DNA from: a virus
Virus record (IMG/VR): IMGVR_UViG_3300035162_004494
Span: 1 to 21,829 of that record
Reading direction: 5' to 3' (one strand)
DNA length: 21,829 bases
Shown here: positions 2,502 through 17,805 of the stretch, one piece after another
How positions within the stretch are numbered: position 1 is the first letter of the stretch
How the letters are laid out: each line of letters opens with the position of its first letter
Made by a program: the position numbers and the translations under genes
Notes under the pieces: generated by a model
What the model was told of the DNA's origin: nothing
Database searches by the model: none
What the model saw: only the letters and a program-made list of their open reading frames with translations

Positions 2502-5500
2502 ATGGACATTAAGAAACGCCGTAGACCAGGAATTAAAGCTATAAGAGACTTCCAGAATGGCGGGTTATTTATATCGCCAGACGAGGCGAGGGAGTTATCT
2601 AGTCAAGCTGACTTTCAATCATATAATAGAGAGAGGGATCCAGGAAGTATCAAACCAACCCCACCCTTAACCCACTCAAAAGTTCTAGAAAGCCTAGCGT
2701 ACATGATAGCCAACCCACTGGATTCATGGACAGCAGGAAGAGATTACGACACTTTTCTACCTTCAAGAGAACAGATACTGTCCAAAACCTCTCCTATGGG
2801 GGCGGCTATAACAGCTTTAAACCCTTTAGATGAGGCAGCTGCTGTTATTTCTTCTTTGGTAGAACTAGAAAAAGGAAATTATGTAAATGCAGCTATATAC
2901 CCTGTCCTATCAATGTTCCCGCAGGCTTTCAGGAAGTCATTGCGTGATAGAGCAGATAAAATAAGAAAACACCATGATAGTGGGAGCCAATGGAGCGGCA
3001 ATTGGGAGTGGCAGAAATTAGTAAAAGAGCAAAATGATGAAATTGCGGATCTCACGGTTTACACAAGGAACCAAAATCCGCAAGAGTTTGACGATATGCT
3101 AAAACAATCTATTATCAACCTCCCAGAACCACAAGCAAAAAATTTATTTCAAAGTTTAGTTGCCACCAGGCAAGAACATCTAGGATACGGGAACATGTCG
3201 ATATTCAAAGGACTTGATCCAAGTACTAGAATAGATCAACCGATTACTTTTGATAGATTTGGTTTAGAAAATGTAGAGGGGAACCCATCTGTAGATGCGA
3301 TTTCTAAGGCGAGAACCCATCAAATGGACCCTTATCATCCAGGGAGTGGTCTTTTTCATCATGATGAAATGCAGCGCCTTACTAATAGTGTGCCATTATA
3401 TCGTACTGTAAGATCAAAAGACGCTACTTCACCTTACAATGTAATAAGAGGTGAAGACAGAATAAAAGTTCACGAAGATGAACTCCTACCAAATGATATT
3501 ATAACCTCTCTAAGTCAACCTAATACTGAGGGGAGAAAGGATGTAACTATACCTGGTGATAGAGCTGTAAGTACATCAAATGAGAATGATCCACTTTTTT
3601 GGTCGACTATTAATAAAAAAACGAATAGTTTTACTACCCCTTTCAAAATACAAAATACTAAAGGGCTTCCTGTTATGAGACAGCCTTTGCTAAATTCTTC
3701 CGAATCGAGTCTTAATCATGAGCAAGAATTTACTCTTCCTTCGAATCAAGCATTTAAAGTTGTAAAAGTCGGGGATAGAGATTTGACTTTTCCAGAAAAT
3801 TTGTCAAGTGAAAATAAGAAAGATATTCTCAATAGAATAGAACCACATATAATTGAGCCTATAAAATTAAATAAAGGACAGCGGGAATTTAGGCAAGGCG
3901 GTAAGCGGAGTCTTAATGTTGCAAAAACTCCTAAAGAACAAAAGCAAGGGTTAAGACTTGCACACCAAGCGGGGAACGTTAATCAAAGTATGGCATTTCC
4001 TAATGTCCCTCCTAACACTCCATTCAATACGATGGGCATGAAGGCTCCAATCGATATCAAGAAGTTCGACAAGCAGGGAAACTTAATTAAGTCATACGAT
4101 AACGTTCCCCCAGGTGTACAGAACCTCCCAACAGGACCACAAAAAGGTACTGTTCTTGAAACTCCCGCTAACATGCAGTCAGGAGGAGAAGTAAAAATGC
4201 AAAGTGAGGGGACTATCTCTCCAGATGAGATGATGCAGAAGTTGCAACAGTCAAAAAACCCTGACAAGTTGAGAGGAAGTGATGCCCCCGTCCCCCGCAC
4301 CATCGAGCAAGAAAAAGAACGTCAATCAAGAGAGTGGGCTAAAGAGAAGACCCCTGATGCGTTTTTCCAAACAGCTAGGTTTATGCCTCTCCTTGGTGAG
4401 ACTATAGACTCAGCGGAGCTGGCTAAAGTTCGACTTACAGGTACGGACTTCTATGGTAATGAGCACAACCCTAATATTTACGCAGCTATGACGGCGGCAG
4501 GTTACCTCATACCTAATATATTGGAGAAACCTTTAAAAAGTGCTTGGCGAGCACTGAAAAAGTTCCCTTCTAATTTTTCCAAGAAAGACTTCGCAGATAT
4601 CTCAATAGAAAAAAGGGAAGGGATCCTCGGAAATCTAGTTACAGCTCACGATGAGGTATACAGACAGTCAGGAGTAACCAACGGCATCTTGCTTGCTGAA
4701 GACGCAGCGATGATGAGAAATGTGCGGCAGCTCCCGTCTTTGATGTCTGGTAGTAATCTAGAGAATTCCGTAGGGAAGGACGGGATGATCCACGCATCAC
4801 AGATAAAGAACCTTATATCCAATAAAAACACTTCGAATGTGGAGAGAACGTACCTCCAAGAGGCACTAGACGTATCCACATTGACAGGAGGTAAGATAGA
4901 TTACAACCAGTTCCGCCGAGAGGTCGTTTCTTTGGTTTCTTCCGAAAAAGGCATTTTCCATACAGAGCAAACCGACCAGTATGCCGATTATGGCTTGGTT
5001 AATCTTTCGAAAATAGGTGAAGGGAAGTTTGGGGTGGATGAGCTTAATGCGAAAACCAACCTTATACGCACCACTGACCAAGATCTCCAGAGCGAAAGAG
5101 AAGGCCATTTCGGGAAGGACGTTATCGGCCACTACAGGTCCTTTGAGCGTCCAGATGAGAAGGGGGTTCTATATATCTCTGAGATGCAATCCGACCCGAT
5201 GCAGGCCAGCGCGCAGGGAGGGGGGCCAAAAAGGGTTTCCCTCCTAGGGGCACATCGCATGAGTGACGATGAAGTTAATGGTGATATGTTTTCGGCACTC
5301 AGGTTTATTGATGATGATAAAAAGATGTTGGCTGACCTGGATAACGTCAAGACCCTACAGGACATGAGGACTTGGAGTAGGATATTCAATCTGTCCGCTT
5401 TTTCGGACGATTATACAACCCTTTCTATCGACAATAATCGTGCAATTCAGCACTTTGAGAGTATGGGTAATCCCTTCTCGGCGCAGTCCGATTTCATGAT

Positions 5501-6365
5501 AACGATCAACGGCGATGCAGTAAAGAATGCCGCGATTAATCTGGGCCCTAGCACTGGTAACAGCGCCGACTTGCTCCCTATACGCAAGGCTTTAGAAGAA
5601 AAAATAGCGCTGACACAGGCGTATCACGATGGCTTAGAAGGCGGTTGGAGAGGCGGCCCAAACCCCAAGCAAGCCAGCCTAATTAAGAACCAAGACCAGT
5701 TCCTTATCTCTCACGTCCTGGAGCAGGAAGCGAAGGGGGCAGACAAGCTCCGCTTCCCGACGGGGGAGACGACAGGTAAAATTCAGGGGTACGAGGATGT
5801 AGAATTTACCCGTCGGGAAGCCAAGGAGCGTTTTGAACGCTATGAGGCCCTGGCTCAATCGTTCAGGGAAATGCCTGGGGTTGATAGGGCTTTCAAAGAA
5901 CACCCAATGCTAAAAGGTAAGACCGATGACGAGGTGCATGTAATAATGGACAAGGTGAATGGTCATCGTAGAATTACGGAAGCTCATGGCCCGTCAGATA
6001 AGGTGGAGGGCTACCAATGGGCGGATGAGGCGAAAGAATGGGAACAAGGGTGGCTCAGAATGAAAAACGGTAGATCTATTGAGAAGGGGGCGGTAAAGGA
6101 TTGGCATGACGCTAGAAGCGGTATCCGTACCAGCAAAATACACTTAGATGCCGTAAACTCCTACGCTCCAGTCCAGATAGGGATTATGAAGGGGTATGAC
6201 GACCTCCCGAAAGCGCTGAAGAAGCACGGGTTGGAAGCGAAAAAAGTCACTGACGATGCAGGCAACAGTTGGTGGGAGGTAGATATCCCCGCTAAACTAG
6301 GTCAAGGTGTAGGGGAGATCAGATCATACAAAAAAGGTGGTAAATTTAAAATATTAAAGAAATAA
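2502..6365 (+). CDS. Giant virion-associated polyvalent-type protein (1287 aa) with EMQSD motif
   Basis: A single 1287-codon frame. The C-terminal part resembles phage large polyvalent or internal virion proteins: VLYISEMQSD with Glu894-Met-Gln-Ser-Asp898, then ADKLRFPTGETTG around residue 1084, then a closing segment with KGYDDLPKALKKHG and WWEVDIP near the C terminus. In known families these are parts of one domain of unknown biochemistry found in proteins packaged with or injected alongside phage DNA. Four aromatic/Met-x-x-Gly-Gly motifs occur: FQNGG (residues 17-21), FRQGG (463-467), MQSGG (558-562) and YKKGG close to the end. SPDE follows both the first and the third, suggesting two fused modules. 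By eye, DNA before about 4000 is AT-rich and DNA after about 4200 richer in G and C, which supports fusion or mosaic origin. No transmembrane segment or protease motif noticed. Start chosen as the first ATG after the promoter-like box. Confidence 0.75.
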   Translation: MDIKKRRRPGIKAIRDFQNGGLFISPDEARELSSQADFQSYNRERDPGSIKPTPPLTHSKVLESLAYMIANPLDSWTAGRDYDTFLPSREQILSKTSPMGAAITALNPLDEAAAVISSLVELEKGNYVNAAIYPVLSMFPQAFRKSLRDRADKIRKHHDSGSQWSGNWEWQKLVKEQNDEIADLTVYTRNQNPQEFDDMLKQSIINLPEPQAKNLFQSLVATRQEHLGYGNMSIFKGLDPSTRIDQPITFDRFGLENVEGNPSVDAISKARTHQMDPYHPGSGLFHHDEMQRLTNSVPLYRTVRSKDATSPYNVIRGEDRIKVHEDELLPNDIITSLSQPNTEGRKDVTIPGDRAVSTSNENDPLFWSTINKKTNSFTTPFKIQNTKGLPVMRQPLLNSSESSLNHEQEFTLPSNQAFKVVKVGDRDLTFPENLSSENKKDILNRIEPHIIEPIKLNKGQREFRQGGKRSLNVAKTPKEQKQGLRLAHQAGNVNQSMAFPNVPPNTPFNTMGMKAPIDIKKFDKQGNLIKSYDNVPPGVQNLPTGPQKGTVLETPANMQSGGEVKMQSEGTISPDEMMQKLQQSKNPDKLRGSDAPVPRTIEQEKERQSREWAKEKTPDAFFQTARFMPLLGETIDSAELAKVRLTGTDFYGNEHNPNIYAAMTAAGYLIPNILEKPLKSAWRALKKFPSNFSKKDFADISIEKREGILGNLVTAHDEVYRQSGVTNGILLAEDAAMMRNVRQLPSLMSGSNLENSVGKDGMIHASQIKNLISNKNTSNVERTYLQEALDVSTLTGGKIDYNQFRREVVSLVSSEKGIFHTEQTDQYADYGLVNLSKIGEGKFGVDELNAKTNLIRTTDQDLQSEREGHFGKDVIGHYRSFERPDEKGVLYISEMQSDPMQASAQGGGPKRVSLLGAHRMSDDEVNGDMFSALRFIDDDKKMLADLDNVKTLQDMRTWSRIFNLSAFSDDYTTLSIDNNRAIQHFESMGNPFSAQSDFMITINGDAVKNAAINLGPSTGNSADLLPIRKALEEKIALTQAYHDGLEGGWRGGPNPKQASLIKNQDQFLISHVLEQEAKGADKLRFPTGETTGKIQGYEDVEFTRREAKERFERYEALAQSFREMPGVDRAFKEHPMLKGKTDDEVHVIMDKVNGHRRITEAHGPSDKVEGYQWADEAKEWEQGWLRMKNGRSIEKGAVKDWHDARSGIRTSKIHLDAVNSYAPVQIGIMKGYDDLPKALKKHGLEAKKVTDDAGNSWWEVDIPAKLGQGVGEIRSYKKGGKFKILKK

Positions 6366-10181: not shown

Positions 10182-10417
10182 TGCAAGGTATTATACGAAA
10201 GATCATCATTGGGAGAGATCCCAAAGATGCTATGGCGTACTATGTGGGAATGCGAGCGGGAGACGGAAAAGTAGTTGCTATAGTATTAGATGAAAAACAT
10301 CTACATGTTTACTCAAAAAAGAGATATTTAGTATATTTAGAGGTAGATAGCGCCCAGGTACTATGGAAAAGCGTTGACGATATGCCTTGTATACTTGAGT
10401 TTGATTTGAATTTTTAA
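10181..10417 (+). CDS. Small conserved-looking phage protein (78 aa)
   Basis: Compact alpha/beta-type sequence (IIRKIIIGRDPKDAMAYYVG, then VVAIVLDEKHL and MPCILEFDLNF at the end). It starts and ends in one-base stop/start overlaps (TAATG), so translation is coupled on both sides. I do not know its function; the regular hydrophobic pattern and context suggest a real, folded protein. Confidence 0.6.
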   Translation: MQGIIRKIIIGRDPKDAMAYYVGMRAGDGKVVAIVLDEKHLHVYSKKRYLVYLEVDSAQVLWKSVDDMPCILEFDLNF

Positions 10418-10992
10418 TGAATATGTTATATTATTTCGTTGTAAAGCTTGATAAAGCTTTCAATGATGAGGTGGACTTCAATGGGGATAAGATCTACATG
10501 GAGACCAAGTTTGATGAGTTTAAACATCGCGTTACACAAGGTCCTGTAGTATCGACTCCCTTTAAATATGATACTCCAGTAAAACCTGGGGACACTCTGT
10601 TCTTTCACCACTTAGTAGTTATGAACGGAGGTCAGATGCTAACGGGTTGTGACAACCATTACATGGTTGCTTATGATCCAAATGTACCCATCAACTCTCA
10701 GGCTTTTGCTTACCGTTCTTATGATAGTGATACAGTACATCCTTTGCCAGGATGGTCTATTCTATCCCCTGACTTCCCTGAAGAGTTGATTTCAGAAATG
10801 TTTGATTTAGTGTCTTATGAGGAACCGCTACCCACTCGTGGAGTAGTTGCTTTTGATAGCGACGAACTTGCAGAGCTTGGAGTATATGTGGGTGATACAG
10901 TAGGGTTTAAGGAAAATAGAGATTACAGGTTTAAAATTGACGGGGATGAGTTTTACCGTACCCGTTGCCAAGATTTATTATATGCCGTCTAA
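10417..10992 (+). CDS. Tandem GroES-like co-chaperonin (191 aa)
   Basis: Two GroES-like halves are visible. First: RVTQGPVVSTP (38-48), then VKPGDTLFFHH (55-65) and a mobile-loop-like segment. Second: TRGVVAFDSDELAELGVYVGDTVGF (140-164), RDYRFKIDGDEFYRTRCQDLLYAV (168-191), which matches the GroES ending in which a GD-V-F strand, an IDG-x-x-Y turn and a D-I/L-L-AV tail occur in order. Known phage co-chaperonins (such as T4 gp31) replace host GroES so that GroEL can fold large virion proteins. At 191 residues it is about twice a normal GroES subunit. Starts inside TAATG; its end overlaps the next gene by 11 nt. An alternative start two codons in is possible. Confidence 0.7.
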   Translation: MNMLYYFVVKLDKAFNDEVDFNGDKIYMETKFDEFKHRVTQGPVVSTPFKYDTPVKPGDTLFFHHLVVMNGGQMLTGCDNHYMVAYDPNVPINSQAFAYRSYDSDTVHPLPGWSILSPDFPEELISEMFDLVSYEEPLPTRGVVAFDSDELAELGVYVGDTVGFKENRDYRFKIDGDEFYRTRCQDLLYAV

Positions 10993-11569: not shown

Positions 11570-11821
11570 ATGAAGGTTAAGAGAAACTATAAAGACGAAT
11601 ACAAAAAGTTTCATAGCTCTAAGGCGGCTAAGGGCATGAGGGTTAAGTTAAACGCTCACGCTAGAAAAAAAGGTGGTCCAGCAGGTCCTGGTAAAGACTA
11701 CTCTCATAAAGACGGAGGTATAGTTCCAGAAAGTAGTAGCGTAAACCGAGGGCGATCAGGGGAAGGCGGCAGAAAAAAAGGCATACCACACAAATACCCT
11801 GCTAAAAGGCGAAACGGGTAA
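11570..11821 (+). CDS. Basic HNH-like small protein next to the packaging genes (83 aa)
   Basis: Very basic. Residues 28-60 (NAHARKKG...GPGKDYSHKDGG...SVNR) follow the outline of a family of small phage proteins with GDGKDxDHK...NR, related to HNH endonucleases; here Asp43, His46 and Asn59-Arg60 align with that pattern, but the usual D-H pair is stretched to D-Y-S-H, so catalysis is doubtful. HNH proteins often sit beside terminase genes and help packaging. It also carries KDGG (47-50). Its stop overlaps the next start (TAATG). Possibly degenerate or only DNA-binding. Confidence 0.55.
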   Translation: MKVKRNYKDEYKKFHSSKAAKGMRVKLNAHARKKGGPAGPGKDYSHKDGGIVPESSSVNRGRSGEGGRKKGIPHKYPAKRRNG

Positions 11822-13140
11822 TGAGATTCATATTTCTATTATTTCTATTCCCTAGTATTGTTATAGGGCAATGCGACGTGGAGCTCATATATTATGATTT
11901 TGAGACTCATGAGGTTTCTATAACTACTCATAACGGCAGTGGGTGTATTGGGGATGGGGTGCAGAAGCTGCAGCTGGGTATGCATAAGCCAGGGTTGGAT
12001 AGCAACTGGATGTATTGCTCTAACCCGATAAATCACCCAGGATATGTATGGTTCCCTACTATAAACTGGGACAGCGCCCCTTCCAACAACGCGGTTCCTG
12101 AGTTAGATCCCGATGGCGACGGATATCTTACTGAAGGGGATACGTGTACGTTTAACATACTAGACCTCCCATATATACAAAGCGACTACTACTGGTGTTG
12201 GTTTGAGATGGTAGAGCAGGCGTATGCTGACGGTTGCGTAGAGATAGTTTTGTGGCAGATAAACCTCTCTCAGACATCTCACGTATGGGAAGGCGGTTGG
12301 GCGACATCACCTAGCGGAATATCCGTAGGAAACTACCCAGATGTAAACATAGAAGACAATAGCGTATCAGTAGAAGATAGCTGCTACTGTGTCACGGATA
12401 CTTTTACGGTATGGATATACGCTGATACTTTATACGAGTATAGCGTAGATACTATTGTAGAGTATGTAGAAGTCGAGCTATGGGATACCCTTATAGCAAC
12501 TCAGATAGACACCCTCATAGAGTACGTACAGATACCACCAGACACAGTCATTACAATTCAAGTAGACACTCTAATAGAATACGTTTGGGACACCTTATTG
12601 ATTGTTCAAGTCGATACGGTAGTGGAGTTTGTTGAACTCCCACCTGATACCATTGAGATCGAAATAGTAGATACATTGTACCTCAACGTCTTTGACACTA
12701 CGTACATAGACGTTCATGACACCCTGTACATACAAGTAGTAGATACGGTTTTCTTCTATCAAAATGACACTCTTATAGAGTATTTGGTTGAGACAATTTA
12801 CATAGATTGTGCTACTGGACTGTTTTGTAATGAAATACCAGAGGTAGATGATTGCAATGGAGCCTCTATCTATATACCTAATGCATTCTCCCCTAATAAT
12901 GACGGATTAAACGATGCTTGGGGGGCTATAGCTCAAAATGAATGCTGGGAAGATTGGAACTTAAAGGTATTTAATCGTTGGGGCGAGGTAATATGGCAAT
13001 CGACATCACCAGAACATAAATGGATAGGCGGCGATGATTACTATTCTGAAGGAGGCATGTATTCATACATTGTTTCGGCAAAAAGAAAAACAGACAGTAA
13101 GCGTTTTAGTTATCAAGGGGTTATAGTTATTTTAAGGTGA
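11821..13140 (+). CDS. Secreted protein with type IX secretion (CHU_C / gliding-motility) C-terminal domain (439 aa)
   Basis: Three parts. Residues 1-16 form a signal peptide (MRFIFLLFLFPSIVIG) with cleavage likely before or after Gln17. Residues 17 to about 190 are a Cys/Trp-rich extracellular-type domain with a calcium-loop-like DPDGDGYLTEGD. Residues about 195-330 are a linker of repeated Asp-Thr-(Leu/Val) units spaced roughly every 7-9 residues. Residues 351-439 are the gliding-motility-associated C-terminal domain: YIPNAFSPNNDGLND (351-365), then LKVFNRWGEVIW and a terminal beta-strand run. In Bacteroidota this domain directs export through the type IX system to the cell surface. The phage context is clear: it overlaps the HNH-like gene by one base and is followed by a tRNA and TerL. 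It may coat infected cells, act in exclusion, or be carried cargo; the role is unknown. Confidence 0.8.
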   Translation: MRFIFLLFLFPSIVIGQCDVELIYYDFETHEVSITTHNGSGCIGDGVQKLQLGMHKPGLDSNWMYCSNPINHPGYVWFPTINWDSAPSNNAVPELDPDGDGYLTEGDTCTFNILDLPYIQSDYYWCWFEMVEQAYADGCVEIVLWQINLSQTSHVWEGGWATSPSGISVGNYPDVNIEDNSVSVEDSCYCVTDTFTVWIYADTLYEYSVDTIVEYVEVELWDTLIATQIDTLIEYVQIPPDTVITIQVDTLIEYVWDTLLIVQVDTVVEFVELPPDTIEIEIVDTLYLNVFDTTYIDVHDTLYIQVVDTVFFYQNDTLIEYLVETIYIDCATGLFCNEIPEVDDCNGASIYIPNAFSPNNDGLNDAWGAIAQNECWEDWNLKVFNRWGEVIWQSTSPEHKWIGGDDYYSEGGMYSYIVSAKRKTDSKRFSYQGVIVILR

Positions 13141-13141
13141 A

Positions 13142-13215
13142 ACCCCTGTAACTCAATTGGATAGAGTAACGCCCTTCTAAGGCGTAAGTTTTGGGTTCGA
13201 ATCCCAACAGAGGTA
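13142..13215 (+). tRNA. tRNA-Arg (anticodon TCT)
   Basis: Full cloverleaf: acceptor 13142-13148/13208-13214, D stem ACTC/GAGT (13151-13154/13164-13167) with GG in the loop, anticodon stem ACGCC/GGCGT with loop CTTCTAA and anticodon TCT at 13176-13178, T stem TTGGG/CCCAA with loop TTCGAAT. Discriminator is A13215. The acceptor stem has one C-A mismatch (13145/13211), and CCA is not encoded. It fits within the 79 nt between the stop at 13140 and the TerL start at 13220. It would decode AGA (and AGG by wobble), codons that look common in the phage genes. Confidence 0.92.
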
Positions 13216-13219
13216 CAAT

Positions 13220-15343
13220 ATGAATATTTTAATAGATTTAGAAGGGTATGAGGAGAAAGGGATCTGCATCTGCCCCAACGGTACGGTTGGCGACTACATT
13301 GAAATCGGTGGGCTTCTCATTGTGCTCCCGAAAACGCCTAAGAGAAATAAAATTGCCTACCACGACCTTCCCATCAATGAGCAAAGATGGAAACGGGAAG
13401 ATATTCCGAGTGAGTTATCACGTATACGCTCTATGGATGAGTGGTCGGAAATGCCCAGGGAGTTTAGGGAAAGGTTTCATCCGTATATCGAAGAAGAATT
13501 TCGGCGTAGGCGTGAGGGCTTTTGGTTTTTTAATAGAGGCACACCTACATACGTCACTGGTCGTAATTACATGATGTTGCAATGGACCAATTTAGACATT
13601 GGGCCTCCATTTTATCTAAACTTTCAGCGTCAAATATTTTTACACTTAGCAGCATGTGAAGCAGACCCTAGATGTATTGGGCAGCTTTATACCAAGTGTC
13701 GTAGATCAGGATACACCAATATATGTTCTGCTGTGTTACTTGACGAGGGTACTCAAGTTAAGGACAAGCTATTGGGTATACAGAGTAAGACGGGTAAAGA
13801 CGCACAAGAAAACATTTTCATGAAGAAAGTGGTTCAGATGTTTCGTAAATATCCATTCTTCTTTAAGCCTATACAAGACGGAACTACTAATCCGCGTATG
13901 GAGTTGGCCTTTAGGGAGCCGTCTAAAAAAATTACTAAGAAGAATAAAACTTCTCAAATAGGAGAAGCTTTGAACACAGTTATAAACTGGAAAAACACAA
14001 CGAATAACGCATATGACGGTGAAAAAGTTCACTTGTTGTATTTAGATGAGGCAGGTAAATGGGAAAAACCAACAGATATAAGAGAAGCCTGGAGGATACA
14101 GAGAACGTGTCTAATAGTAGGAAGAAAAATCGTCGGGAAAGCGATGGTGGGGAGTACGGTAAACCCTATGGGAAAAGGGGGAAACGAGTACAAAGACCTA
14201 TGGAGGGATTCGGATCCTTTGGAGAGGAACAAGAATGGGAGGACTAGGTCTGGTCTTTATAGGTTATTTATACCAGCTTATGATTCTTTAGAAGGATTCT
14301 TTGATAAATATGGTCATCCCATTATAGATAATCCAGAAGAACACATAGAAGGCATTGACGGAGAATACGTTCATATGGGAGCTAAGACCTTTCTAAAGAA
14401 TGAAAGAGAGAGTTTAAAAAATGACGCTTCAGAATTAAATGAAGTTATACGTCAGTTTCCATTTACCGAAGATGAAGCGTTTAGAGATAGTATAGACGGG
14501 AGCTTATTTAATATAGGTAAGATATATGAGCAAATAGAGCATAACGATAATTTGTTTCCCAACCCTATTGTAAAGGGTAATTTTGTATGGCAAGATGGAG
14601 TTGCGGACACAAAAGTTGTTTTTTCTCCTGACCCAAAAGGAAGGTGTCATATATCGTGGATGCCGCCAGAAGAACTACGAAATTTAAAGAAAGAAGAACG
14701 TGGGAAACGAGTAGCCCCTAATGGTAATATAGGATGTGGTGGAGTAGATAGTTATGATCTGGACTCCACTGTAGATGGTCGTGGATCAAAAGGAGCCTTG
14801 CACCTATACAATAAGTTTAATATGGAAATGCCTGCTAATATGTTTGTTCTTGAGTACGCCTCAAGACCGCCTTTAGCAAAGATCTTCTATGAAGATGTTT
14901 TAATGGCTGCTGTGTTTTATGGCTATCCTATTTTAATAGAGAACAACAAATATGGTATAGCTAGGCACTTTGAGGCCAGGGGTTATGACGGATACCTCAT
15001 GGATAGACCTGCACACTTGCTCTCTATTTCAGCAAAAGTTAATGTAAAAACAAAAGGGATCCCTTCTAATTCACAAGATGTAATTCATTCTCACGCTCAT
15101 GCGATAGAAGCTTATATACATGATCATGTAGGCGGTAATAGGGATACAGGTGAAATAGGAAATATGTATTTTAATAGAACTCTAGAAGACTGGATTGGAT
15201 TTAAAATTGATGACAGAACAAAGTTTGACCTTACTATTAGTTCTGGCTTGTGTTTGCTTGCTGCACAAAAAATAAACCCCAAAAAAATTACTTCTAATTT
15301 TCAAGAGTCTAAGTTTTTTAGGCGATATAAGGTGAGGGGATGA
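13220..15343 (+). CDS. terL: Terminase large subunit (707 aa)
   Basis: The packaging motor ATPase and nuclease. ATPase: a degenerate Walker A KCRRSGYT (residues 159-166, Lys159, Gly164, Thr166) after the typical FYLNFQRQIF segment, and Walker B LLYLDEA with Asp276-Glu277, followed by GSTVNPMGKGG, which fits motif III. Nuclease: GVDSYDLDST with Asp510 and Asp513, and LIENNK with Glu574, as in the RNase H-like fold of terminases. At 707 residues it is longer than most TerL proteins, with an N-terminal extension of about 100 residues. The start lies 4 nt after the tRNA; no Shine-Dalgarno. A TTATATTTGT motif follows its stop, giving the portal gene its own possible promoter. Confidence 0.92.
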   Translation: MNILIDLEGYEEKGICICPNGTVGDYIEIGGLLIVLPKTPKRNKIAYHDLPINEQRWKREDIPSELSRIRSMDEWSEMPREFRERFHPYIEEEFRRRREGFWFFNRGTPTYVTGRNYMMLQWTNLDIGPPFYLNFQRQIFLHLAACEADPRCIGQLYTKCRRSGYTNICSAVLLDEGTQVKDKLLGIQSKTGKDAQENIFMKKVVQMFRKYPFFFKPIQDGTTNPRMELAFREPSKKITKKNKTSQIGEALNTVINWKNTTNNAYDGEKVHLLYLDEAGKWEKPTDIREAWRIQRTCLIVGRKIVGKAMVGSTVNPMGKGGNEYKDLWRDSDPLERNKNGRTRSGLYRLFIPAYDSLEGFFDKYGHPIIDNPEEHIEGIDGEYVHMGAKTFLKNERESLKNDASELNEVIRQFPFTEDEAFRDSIDGSLFNIGKIYEQIEHNDNLFPNPIVKGNFVWQDGVADTKVVFSPDPKGRCHISWMPPEELRNLKKEERGKRVAPNGNIGCGGVDSYDLDSTVDGRGSKGALHLYNKFNMEMPANMFVLEYASRPPLAKIFYEDVLMAAVFYGYPILIENNKYGIARHFEARGYDGYLMDRPAHLLSISAKVNVKTKGIPSNSQDVIHSHAHAIEAYIHDHVGGNRDTGEIGNMYFNRTLEDWIGFKIDDRTKFDLTISSGLCLLAAQKINPKKITSNFQESKFFRRYKVRG

Positions 15344-15381: not shown

Positions 15382-17805
15382 ATGTATAATAATGAAAGCA
15401 GTAAGTCAAGTGGGTTCCCAGATCCTTTAGCTTCTCATGAGTCTAAAGCTGATAAGGCGTATGGTTTGCAGTACGCAAAAGCTATAGAAGGTCAATGGGG
15501 GAGTATGCATGAGAGCAACTCTATTTTTGGAATCAGAAAAAAAATGTTTTCGCGTAATAGAGATTACGCTAACGGAACTCAAGATACTAATATATATAAA
15601 CAGCTATTAAATTCTTTAGACCCTAATAGTGGAGATGGGTCTTTGATGAATATTGACTTTACTTCTGTACCCATCCTACCTAAGTTCGTTCGTATCGTAG
15701 TAAACAAGATTCTTTCTAACAATCCATATCCTAATCTAGAGGCAGTAGATCCATTGTCTTCCTCTGAAAAGAATATTGAAAAGAACAGAATTAAAAATCA
15801 AGTTGAGCTACGTAAAGAGTTAAAGGCTTTAAAGCAACAAGCAGGAAAAGTTTTAGTTGGTCAAGACCCTGATACTTTGCCTGAAAGTTTAGAAGAAGTT
15901 GACATCTTCCTTGAGACTAATATAAAAACTGATGCTGAAATAGCCGCTCAAGTGGCTACTAATATGACGTTGTCTTGGAATAATTTCGAGGACAACACAT
16001 TTAGGCGCTGTGTTAATGATCTCGCAGCTTTAGGTATGACCGTTGTAAAAAGGAGCAATGATCCTAATTACGGCATCAAAGTAGATTACGTAAACCCAGA
16101 GAACTTTATACATAGTTACAGTGACGATCCTAATTTAGATGACCTTACATATGCTGGACATGTAAAAGAGATACCTATTCAAGAGTTAAAGAGGTTGGCG
16201 GGAGATCAGCTTACAGAGGAGGATTTTAAAAAGATATCTAAAACTTCAAAGCGGACAGCCTCAAATAACAAGAGGGGTCAATACTCTGGGACTGTAGATA
16301 AAAAAGATTATGGGGGGCAAACAGTAGATATTATGGAGTTCGAGTTTATCTCGATAGAATCTATGTTTTTTGAGGAAAAGGAAAGCCGTTATGGAAACAA
16401 AGGTTTCTATTATGAAGGTTTTGATTATAAAGAAAGATCTGGTAGCGTATTTGAGCGCACTCCACATAAGATGGATATAGCTGTGGTCTATTCAGGGCTA
16501 TATGTAGTTGGGACTGAGCATGTTTTGAATTACGGCAAGCAGGCCAATGTGCCTAAAAACATCCATGATATTAGTAAAGCTAAACTTTCTTTCTCTGCAG
16601 TAGCAGTAAACATAAGAGATCAGCAGCCAAAATCGATGGTGGATAGCTGCATAGGTTTTGCTGATATGCTTCAGATTACGCACCTGAAGCTTCAGCAGTC
16701 TATAGCTAAAGCCAAACCCGACGGGTTGATTATTGATATTGAGGGGCTAGAGAACGTACAGCTAGGTAAAGGCGGGGAACTACAACCACTAGAGCTTCAC
16801 GATATATACGAGCAGACAGGCGTGTTCTACTATCGTAGTAAAAATCCAGAGGGAGGTTTTCAGAACCCTCCAGTACGGGAGATCGGCAATAGTATAAGGA
16901 ATGTAAACGAACTTATTGCACTTTATAATCACTACTTAAGAATGATCCGTGACGCTACGGGAATCAATGAAGTAGTAGACGCATCGTCTCCAAAAGGAGA
17001 TGCCCTTGTAGGGGTAAGAGATCAAGCTATTGCAGCTAGTAATAACGCCACTTATGATGTGACTAACGCAGCTATGATCCTATACAAGAAAGTATGTGAG
17101 GATATAGTCAAATGCGTTCAAATCATACCTAAAGATTCGGTTATATATAAAGCGTATCAAAACGCTATAGGGGATCAGAATATGAATATTCTTTCATCCT
17201 TTGATGATTTACCTATGTATAACTTTGGTGTACAGGTACAGCGTGATATGGAAGAATCGGATAAAGTTCTTCTAGAGCAGAATATACAGATATCCTTATC
17301 TCAAAAAGAACTTGATATCGAAGATGCTATGGCTATTCGATCTATGAAGGATGTCAACCAGGCAGAGAGGCTGCTTGTACTGCGCAGAAAGAAGCGATTG
17401 AATCGTCAGCAGGAGATGCAACAGCAAGCCGCTCAGATGCAAGCGCAGCAAGCGCAGCAGCAAGCTGCTATGGCGGCACAGGCAGCGCAACAAGAAATGC
17501 AGATGAAGGCTCAATTAGATGCTCAATCTATACAATTGAAAACCGAAGCTGAGATATCTATTGCGCGTGTAAAACACGAGATGCAAAAAGAGATGGAGAT
17601 ATTAAAAGGTAAGGTTGCTTCAGAAGCAAAAGGCTCTGATCATGAGCTTAGAAAAGACATAGAGTCATTGAAAGACGACAGAAAAGACACTAGAGTGAAA
17701 AAGCAAGCTGTAGAGCAAAGCAAGCTTATCTCTCAAAGAAAGGGTAAAAGACCAGAACTTGAAGAAGATATCCCTTTTGATATTACCGAATTATTGAATA
17801 ATTAA
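15382..17805 (+). CDS. Portal protein (807 aa)
   Basis: Forms the dodecameric channel at the capsid vertex through which TerL pumps DNA. Assigned from position directly after terL, length in the range of large podovirus portals, and characteristic stretches: FTSVPILPKFVRIVVNKIL (around residues 94-112), NPENFIHSYSDDP (about 248-260), then a helical stem and RMIRDATGINEVVDASSPKG (about 519-538), a segment typical of portals of this type. The C-terminal tail, roughly residues 660-790, is a long coiled coil with a Gln/Ala/Met-rich run (QMQAQQAQQQAAMAAQAAQ) and then a highly charged segment. The CAA/CAG/GCA-rich codons there could be recombination-prone. Stop is 2 nt before the next start. Confidence 0.88.
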   Translation: MYNNESSKSSGFPDPLASHESKADKAYGLQYAKAIEGQWGSMHESNSIFGIRKKMFSRNRDYANGTQDTNIYKQLLNSLDPNSGDGSLMNIDFTSVPILPKFVRIVVNKILSNNPYPNLEAVDPLSSSEKNIEKNRIKNQVELRKELKALKQQAGKVLVGQDPDTLPESLEEVDIFLETNIKTDAEIAAQVATNMTLSWNNFEDNTFRRCVNDLAALGMTVVKRSNDPNYGIKVDYVNPENFIHSYSDDPNLDDLTYAGHVKEIPIQELKRLAGDQLTEEDFKKISKTSKRTASNNKRGQYSGTVDKKDYGGQTVDIMEFEFISIESMFFEEKESRYGNKGFYYEGFDYKERSGSVFERTPHKMDIAVVYSGLYVVGTEHVLNYGKQANVPKNIHDISKAKLSFSAVAVNIRDQQPKSMVDSCIGFADMLQITHLKLQQSIAKAKPDGLIIDIEGLENVQLGKGGELQPLELHDIYEQTGVFYYRSKNPEGGFQNPPVREIGNSIRNVNELIALYNHYLRMIRDATGINEVVDASSPKGDALVGVRDQAIAASNNATYDVTNAAMILYKKVCEDIVKCVQIIPKDSVIYKAYQNAIGDQNMNILSSFDDLPMYNFGVQVQRDMEESDKVLLEQNIQISLSQKELDIEDAMAIRSMKDVNQAERLLVLRRKKRLNRQQEMQQQAAQMQAQQAQQQAAMAAQAAQQEMQMKAQLDAQSIQLKTEAEISIARVKHEMQKEMEILKGKVASEAKGSDHELRKDIESLKDDRKDTRVKKQAVEQSKLISQRKGKRPELEEDIPFDITELLNN

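Follow-up and report, generated by a model that had tools for sequence, protein, structure and literature searches.

A phage gene family with the sequence marks of type B cargo for the host type IX secretion system

The window analysed here is a stretch of DNA of 21,829 nucleotides, attributed to a virus of marine Bacteroidota (IMG/VR record IMGVR_UViG_3300035162_004494, positions 1 to 21,829). Upstream of the gene of the terminase large subunit (terL), it carries a gene for a 439-residue protein which appears to be made for export through the type IX secretion system (T9SS) of the host. A sequence-only reading of the window had proposed that this is a phage gene built for that system. The proposal is supported by purifying selection, by the embedding of the gene in a phage operon and by the absence of its ectodomain, within the reach of the patterns used, from 84,980 species genomes, except for one evidently mis-binned phage contig.

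Architecture of the surface protein

The gene and its parts are the following:
11821–13140, plus strand: coding sequence with an ATG start, predicted phage-encoded T9SS type B surface protein of 439 amino acids (open reading frame call, PF13585/TIGR04131, family alignments A1 and A4)
11869–12372, plus strand: N-terminal ectodomain, residues 17–184, conserved, beta-sandwich-like in the model (alignment A3, AlphaFold2)
11821–11868, plus strand: Sec signal peptide, residues 1–16, predicted cleavage before Gln17 by the Bacteroidetes Q-rule (sequence, junction in relatives, PMC5837995)
12106–12141, plus strand: calcium-loop-like stretch D96–D107 (DPDGDGYLTEGD), not conserved in relatives (sequence, alignment)
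12388–12798, plus strand: DT-repeat stalk, 15 DT pairs, mostly spaced by 8 residues (shuffle test)
12871–13125, plus strand: CHU_C/type B T9SS sorting domain, residues 351–435 (PF13585, TIGR04131, four-strand sheet of the AlphaFold2 model)

The signal peptide expected from the earlier reading is present (MRFIFLLFLFPSIVIG, followed by Q), and sequence reading places the cleavage junction at ...IVIG↓QCDV, as predicted by the Q-rule described for Bacteroidetes (PMC5837995). Signal peptides were judged by such reading and with a simple pattern (Q after a hydrophobic segment). An [AGS]-Q-C junction occurs in every full-length relative, with a QTC variant in two. The ectodomain is marked, in an alignment of 50 sequences (A3), by the motifs CD..., NHPG, GDT, WQIN, GGWA and YPD. 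The calcium-loop-like motif that had been pointed out in it does exist in the window protein, but it is specific to this protein among the family members aligned.

The stalk contains 15 DT pairs within 137 residues, and 10 of the 14 spacings between them are of exactly 8. In 20,000 shuffles of the stalk letters, the maxima were 8 DT pairs and 2 spacings of 8, and the observed values were never approached; the DT repeat noticed in the window is thus non-random. At least five DT pairs are found in 49 of 50 family members.

The C-terminal domain (CTD), which had been recognised as a CHU_C/gliding-motility domain, matches PF13585 (CHU_C) over residues 351–435 at 55.9 bits (cut-off 27, E 4.8e-15). 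TIGR04131, the NCBIfam model of type B sorting domains which had been suggested as a check, also matches, with 34.7 bits (E 1.4e-8), just under its cut-off of 35. At the thresholds used, each of the two models recovers all 50 aligned relatives, and the CHU_C core positions N354, P358, N364, D365, G388, W401 and Y414 are invariant in the 50 sequences; most of them are shared with host CHU_C proteins. The predicted CTD qualifies as a T9SS type B (TIGR04131/CHU_C) sorting domain. The export of type B cargo requires five motifs, A to E (PMC12618676).

In an AlphaFold2 model, built with 50 homologues, the CTD folds with confidence into a four-strand sheet (strands 376–384, 390–394, 412–422 and 428–437), with a predicted local distance difference test score (pLDDT) of roughly 90–97 across most of residues 350–439. 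This is the shape described for predicted type B CTDs (PMC12618676). The N-terminal domain, for which the earlier reading had called for a structure prediction, is modelled as a beta-sandwich-like (Ig/Fn3-like) fold with a pLDDT of 77, and the stalk, at a pLDDT of about 30, has no confident model. Comparison of the ectodomain with the PDB by Foldseek/VIA returned generic beta-sandwiches at Z under 6 and no confident match, and a PDB sequence search gave chance matches only. The YPD..NN ending had raised the suspicion of a CARDB-like fold, which has no support in Pfam, and the Pfam search revealed no known adhesin domain.

Relatives, selection and domain exchange

Used alone as a query against viral contigs, the window protein found no relatives. 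It is too divergent for a single-sequence search, so that an alignment-based search was needed. The profile search of IMG/VR gave 362 relatives through CTD patterns and 126 through N-domain patterns. The sequence-only reading had taken the intact CTD as an argument against a decaying host gene. Its own refuting condition, a lack of the CTD in all relatives, does not hold: the CTD is present in 97 of 101 distinct N-domain open reading frames, and the other four run off contig ends. Decay of a host gene is rejected in view of purifying selection, of the viral relatives and of the scarcity of the ectodomain in species genomes within the reach of the patterns used. Host CHU_C proteins do align with the CTD of the window protein; with hundreds of viral relatives in IMG/VR, the gene is not a stray host gene.

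Among named phages, two huge phages and a contig from faeces gave only weak matches limited to the CTD, and a search with the protein of another relative gave no match. In 84,980 bacterial and archaeal species genomes, the ectodomain was found once, in a 61.6-kb contig (L237, WLWP01000006.1) of a metagenome-assembled genome assigned to Pseudomonadales. The scan used exact degenerate patterns, and distant cellular relatives may therefore have escaped it. L237 carries GroEL and tailspike-like genes, and is evidently a mis-binned phage contig, with a gene content indicative of a Bacteroidota phage.

A terL search of IMG/VR identified 80 loci with 76–82% identity. The survey of other phages for the gene at this locus, which had been recommended, was positive: eleven of the 80 loci have a direct homologue of the surface protein upstream of terL (two of these are cut at contig ends). 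CHU_C scores above cut-off in 12 of 50 terL-related records, and in one of them (G016) the match is elsewhere on the contig. The predicted surface-protein family spans Elemovirus-like podoviruses and T4-like phages.

The median ratio of nonsynonymous to synonymous substitution rates (dN/dS) is 0.10 over 126 pairs (0.089 for the ectodomain and 0.091 for the CTD). In relatives with about 80% terL identity, the counterpart is only 33–41% identical to the window protein, and in pairs with terL identity above 0.75 the median identity is 0.63 for the ectodomain and 0.41 for the CTD. Near-identical ectodomains (95–96%) occur on different CTDs (35–38%), as in L021 and L096 (96% versus 35%); L211 and L235 are another pair with a common ectodomain and unlike CTDs. 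The reverse case is found in L089 and L143, with 27% identity in the ectodomain and 89% in the CTD. L163, which ends at a contig end and makes a false pair of high N-domain and low CTD identity, was excluded from this comparison. Since such pairs share one domain and differ in the other, ectodomain and sorting domain have been recombined between phages. Exchange of the CTD would fit a matching to the shuttle proteins of different hosts.

The cargo slot between groES and terL

The genes around the surface-protein gene are the following:
10417–10992, plus strand: GroES-like gene, upstream bound of an exchangeable cargo slot (PHROG 13932, E 1e-36; synteny in relatives)
11570–11821, plus strand: phage gene of 83 amino acids (PHROG 6437, function unknown)
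13142–13216, plus strand: tRNA-Arg (TCT), between the surface-protein gene and terL (tRNA call)
13220–15343, plus strand: terL (PHROG 6681, E 3e-201)
15382–17805, plus strand: portal protein (PHROG 6547, E 1e-180)

The 83-residue gene ends in a stop codon that shares one base with the start codon of the surface-protein gene (TAATG). The latter resembles the remainder of the window in GC content and codon usage. A scan for promoters and terminators gave results close to chance level. The description of the 83-residue product as HNH-like is not supported, as it has no Pfam match at E 0.1; true HNH genes do fill the slot in relatives. The surface-protein gene had been placed between this gene and terL: terL does lie downstream, but the intervening tRNA gene had been missed. 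Judged by terL, the window is closest, among named phages, to Caudoviricetes sp. MW202828 (49%), followed by the Elemovirus flavophages (43%).

In relatives, the interval from groES to terL holds exchangeable cargo: HNH endonucleases, GroEL, two proteins without a known function (245 and 210 residues), tRNAs, and also the CHU_C gene, whose position varies relative to the small conserved genes of the slot. The 245-residue protein (beginning with MRSVCFFMVYH, no Pfam match) is recurrent before terL (L008:3881-4615, L014, L017, L025, L072). Not counting the window, terL is in the fetched flank of 61 of the 91 full-length family genes. Other family genes sit in large phages whose clamp loader and baseplate genes are T4-like, and GroEL also occurs in the T4-like records. 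The family is not restricted to the slot beside terL.

A companion secreted protein of about 120 residues, with a Q-rule signal peptide, the sequence QCNQHVFTSVGAEKW... and an EF-hand/dockerin-like tail, is the neighbour of the CHU_C gene at about 35 of the 91 loci, usually in overlapping frames, and was seen in no fetched locus without a CHU_C gene. It is found at L021:6225-6584 and also in L022, L048, L084, L113, L136, L181, L237 and others; the window is without it. A type A T9SS tail (PF18962) occurs on a separate protein of about 670–840 residues of the same phage group (11 of 50 records, 10 above cut-off). In several records the gene of this protein is followed by that of a conserved, outer-membrane-barrel-like Q-rule protein of about 345 residues with no Pfam family (L021:13677-15716 and 15916-16953; L246-L251).

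Beside the terL slot of L034 (1-681, minus strand) lies a fragment of an M43 (pappalysin-like) secreted protease which ends at a contig end. In two large T4-like phage contigs, L120 (G058) and L151 (G068), the CHU_C gene is beside an M43 protease gene, with a fasciclin protein encoded nearby. L120 has in addition queC/queE-like, thyX-like and TonB-dependent receptor genes. These gene sets are possibly phage secretomes.

Proposed export route, alternatives and known systems

Type B cargo needs PorP/SprF-like shuttles, binds specific ones and stays anchored through them (PMC9143113, PMC12618676). Such a shuttle (PF11751) was absent from every phage record searched, whereas the control, a Bernardetia plasmid, was positive, and the outer-membrane-barrel-like phage protein showed no resemblance to PorP/SprF in one hhalign test. 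A shuttle of the host is therefore presumably used. The lack of a linked shuttle gene does not disqualify the phage protein as type B cargo, since 3 of the 12 type B proteins of F. johnsoniae are orphans (PMC12618676); one shuttle can serve orphan cargo as well (PMC9143113, PMC12618676). The type B shuttles of the cell itself are of low abundance and limiting (PMC12618676).

The gene would be transcribed from the phage operon near terL and the portal gene, probably late. The protein would then be exported by the Sec system of the host, whose signal peptidase I would cut it before Gln17. Following the Q-rule, this residue is probably cyclised to pyroglutamate by the host. From the domain and the published biology of type B cargo, the CTD would pass through the T9SS translocon to a PorP/SprF-like shuttle of the host, which would retain the protein on the outer membrane, while the DT stalk would hold the beta-sandwich ectodomain off the surface. 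Taken together, it is likely that the phage protein is displayed outside the infected Bacteroidota cell through the host T9SS.

Several points weigh against this proposal. The TIGR04131 score of the window protein falls 0.3 bits below the curated cut-off, and, by published accounts, a type B signal may take in as many as about 235 residues, more than the core CTD, and also depend on a cognate shuttle. A host T9SS with a matching shuttle is assumed, and late transcription is deduced from the position of the gene only. Finally, a CHU_C protein is absent from the available DNA of about 38 of the 50 terL relatives, many of which are fragments. The gene is thus accessory rather than essential.

The adsorption of marine flavophages depends on gliding/T9SS proteins (PMC13288928). 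A phage protein in this pathway could therefore stand in the way of re-adsorption or superinfection, either through masking or through the occupation of shuttles. The purpose of surface display may thus, tentatively, be to alter the surface of the infected cell and keep later virions, the progeny of the phage itself among them, from adsorbing productively, and possibly also to divert shuttles from gliding adhesins. A wider view, which is rather doubtful at present, is that of a modular T9SS display system of marine Bacteroidota phages. Ectodomains found only in phages would be recombined with type B sorting domains fitting the PorP/SprF-like shuttles of different hosts, and joined in relatives by the companion secreted protein, the separate type A cargo and the outer-membrane-barrel-like protein. 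The infected surface would be rebuilt, and gliding or adsorption turned off.

The displayed protein might instead be an adhesin which sticks infected cells to cells, particles or virions, and which aids spread rather than blocking adsorption. An ectodomain on a stalk with repetitive spacers resembles adhesins, the modelled fold is Ig/Fn3-like, and the ectodomains are diverse when compared to the conserved terL; but given the weak fold match (Z under 6) and the failure of the search to find a known adhesin domain, this function is unlikely. It is quite improbable that the protein is a decoy, whose CTD would saturate the shuttles or the translocon and halt gliding and the export of receptor adhesins, with a minor role for the ectodomain. 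The scarcity of type B shuttles (PMC12618676), the phage resistance conferred by gliding/T9SS mutations (PMC13288928) and the swapping of CTDs between phages all suit a decoy. However, purifying selection acts on the ectodomain as strongly as on the CTD, and the ectodomain is hence not a passive passenger.

A place in the virion, with an Ig-like CHU_C domain binding host glycans, is suggested by the location of the gene inside the packaging and structural region and by the tailspike-like genes that adjoin it in L237. It is very unlikely in view of the Q-rule signal peptide of all full-length relatives, the overlapping companion secreted gene in many of them and the lack of similarity to virion proteins in PHROGs. 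Recent capture of a host surface gene without phage function, which the host-type CTD and its alignment with host CHU_C proteins might evoke, is strongly disfavoured and hardly credible: dN/dS is about 0.1, the relatives found number in the hundreds and are all viral, and one base of the gene is shared with the phage gene before it. Display on the surface of the infected cell is the preferred reading.

The use of the T9SS by phages has so far been noted only in passing. The Cryophage of Bellas et al. (2020) has three type A T9SS cargo genes, and superinfection exclusion was already suggested for them (PMC7468147). As here, these phage-encoded proteins have T9SS C-terminal signals, and they vary among Cryophage variants. 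The difference is that the type A signals are carried by endoglucanase, GH39 and PA14 proteins of one phage population, whereas the type B (CHU_C) signal is found on a dedicated ectodomain-stalk family, in many phages and with CTD exchange. Some open reading frames of crAss-BACON cluster 2 phages have T9SS sorting domains and are likewise encoded beside head genes; they are BACON-domain proteins of gut crAss-like phages, and a type B CTD, a DT stalk or the present ectodomain is not reported in the available part of that paper (PMC6949934). Phage proteins of Porphyromonas gingivalis also have Q-rule signal peptides and a proposed role in host-surface modification, but they are different proteins, for which the available part of the source mentions no T9SS domain (PMC10367356). 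Cellular type B cargo, anchored by PorP/SprF-like barrels, has the same combination of signal peptide and TIGR04131/CHU_C CTD. Unlike the phage genes, cellular ones often adjoin a shuttle gene, and the ectodomains are unrelated. T5 Llp is a small lipoprotein which blocks FhuA. It and other superinfection-exclusion surface proteins are phage-made, act at the host surface and block adsorption; the analogy is functional only, and Llp is not related to the window protein by sequence or export route.

The strategy had been called rarely described. Phage T9SS cargo as such is already known (PMC7468147, PMC6949934), but no description of the type B family, its slot beside terL or its CTD exchange was found in the open-licence literature searched. 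What is new is a modular and widespread type B family, which has hundreds of viral relatives and carries every sequence hallmark of dedicated T9SS cargo, and whose ectodomain was not found in bacteria within the search reach. It suggests that surface remodelling of infected cells may be a common, little-studied phage strategy, and leads one to expect that infected marine Bacteroidota have a remodelled surface. CTD exchange makes the specificity between type B signals and shuttles testable across hosts with natural variants.

Elsewhere in the window, positions 2502–6365 encode a protein of 1287 residues with a marginal DUF192 match (residues 471–559) and no PHROG match, which is possibly a virion or injected protein.
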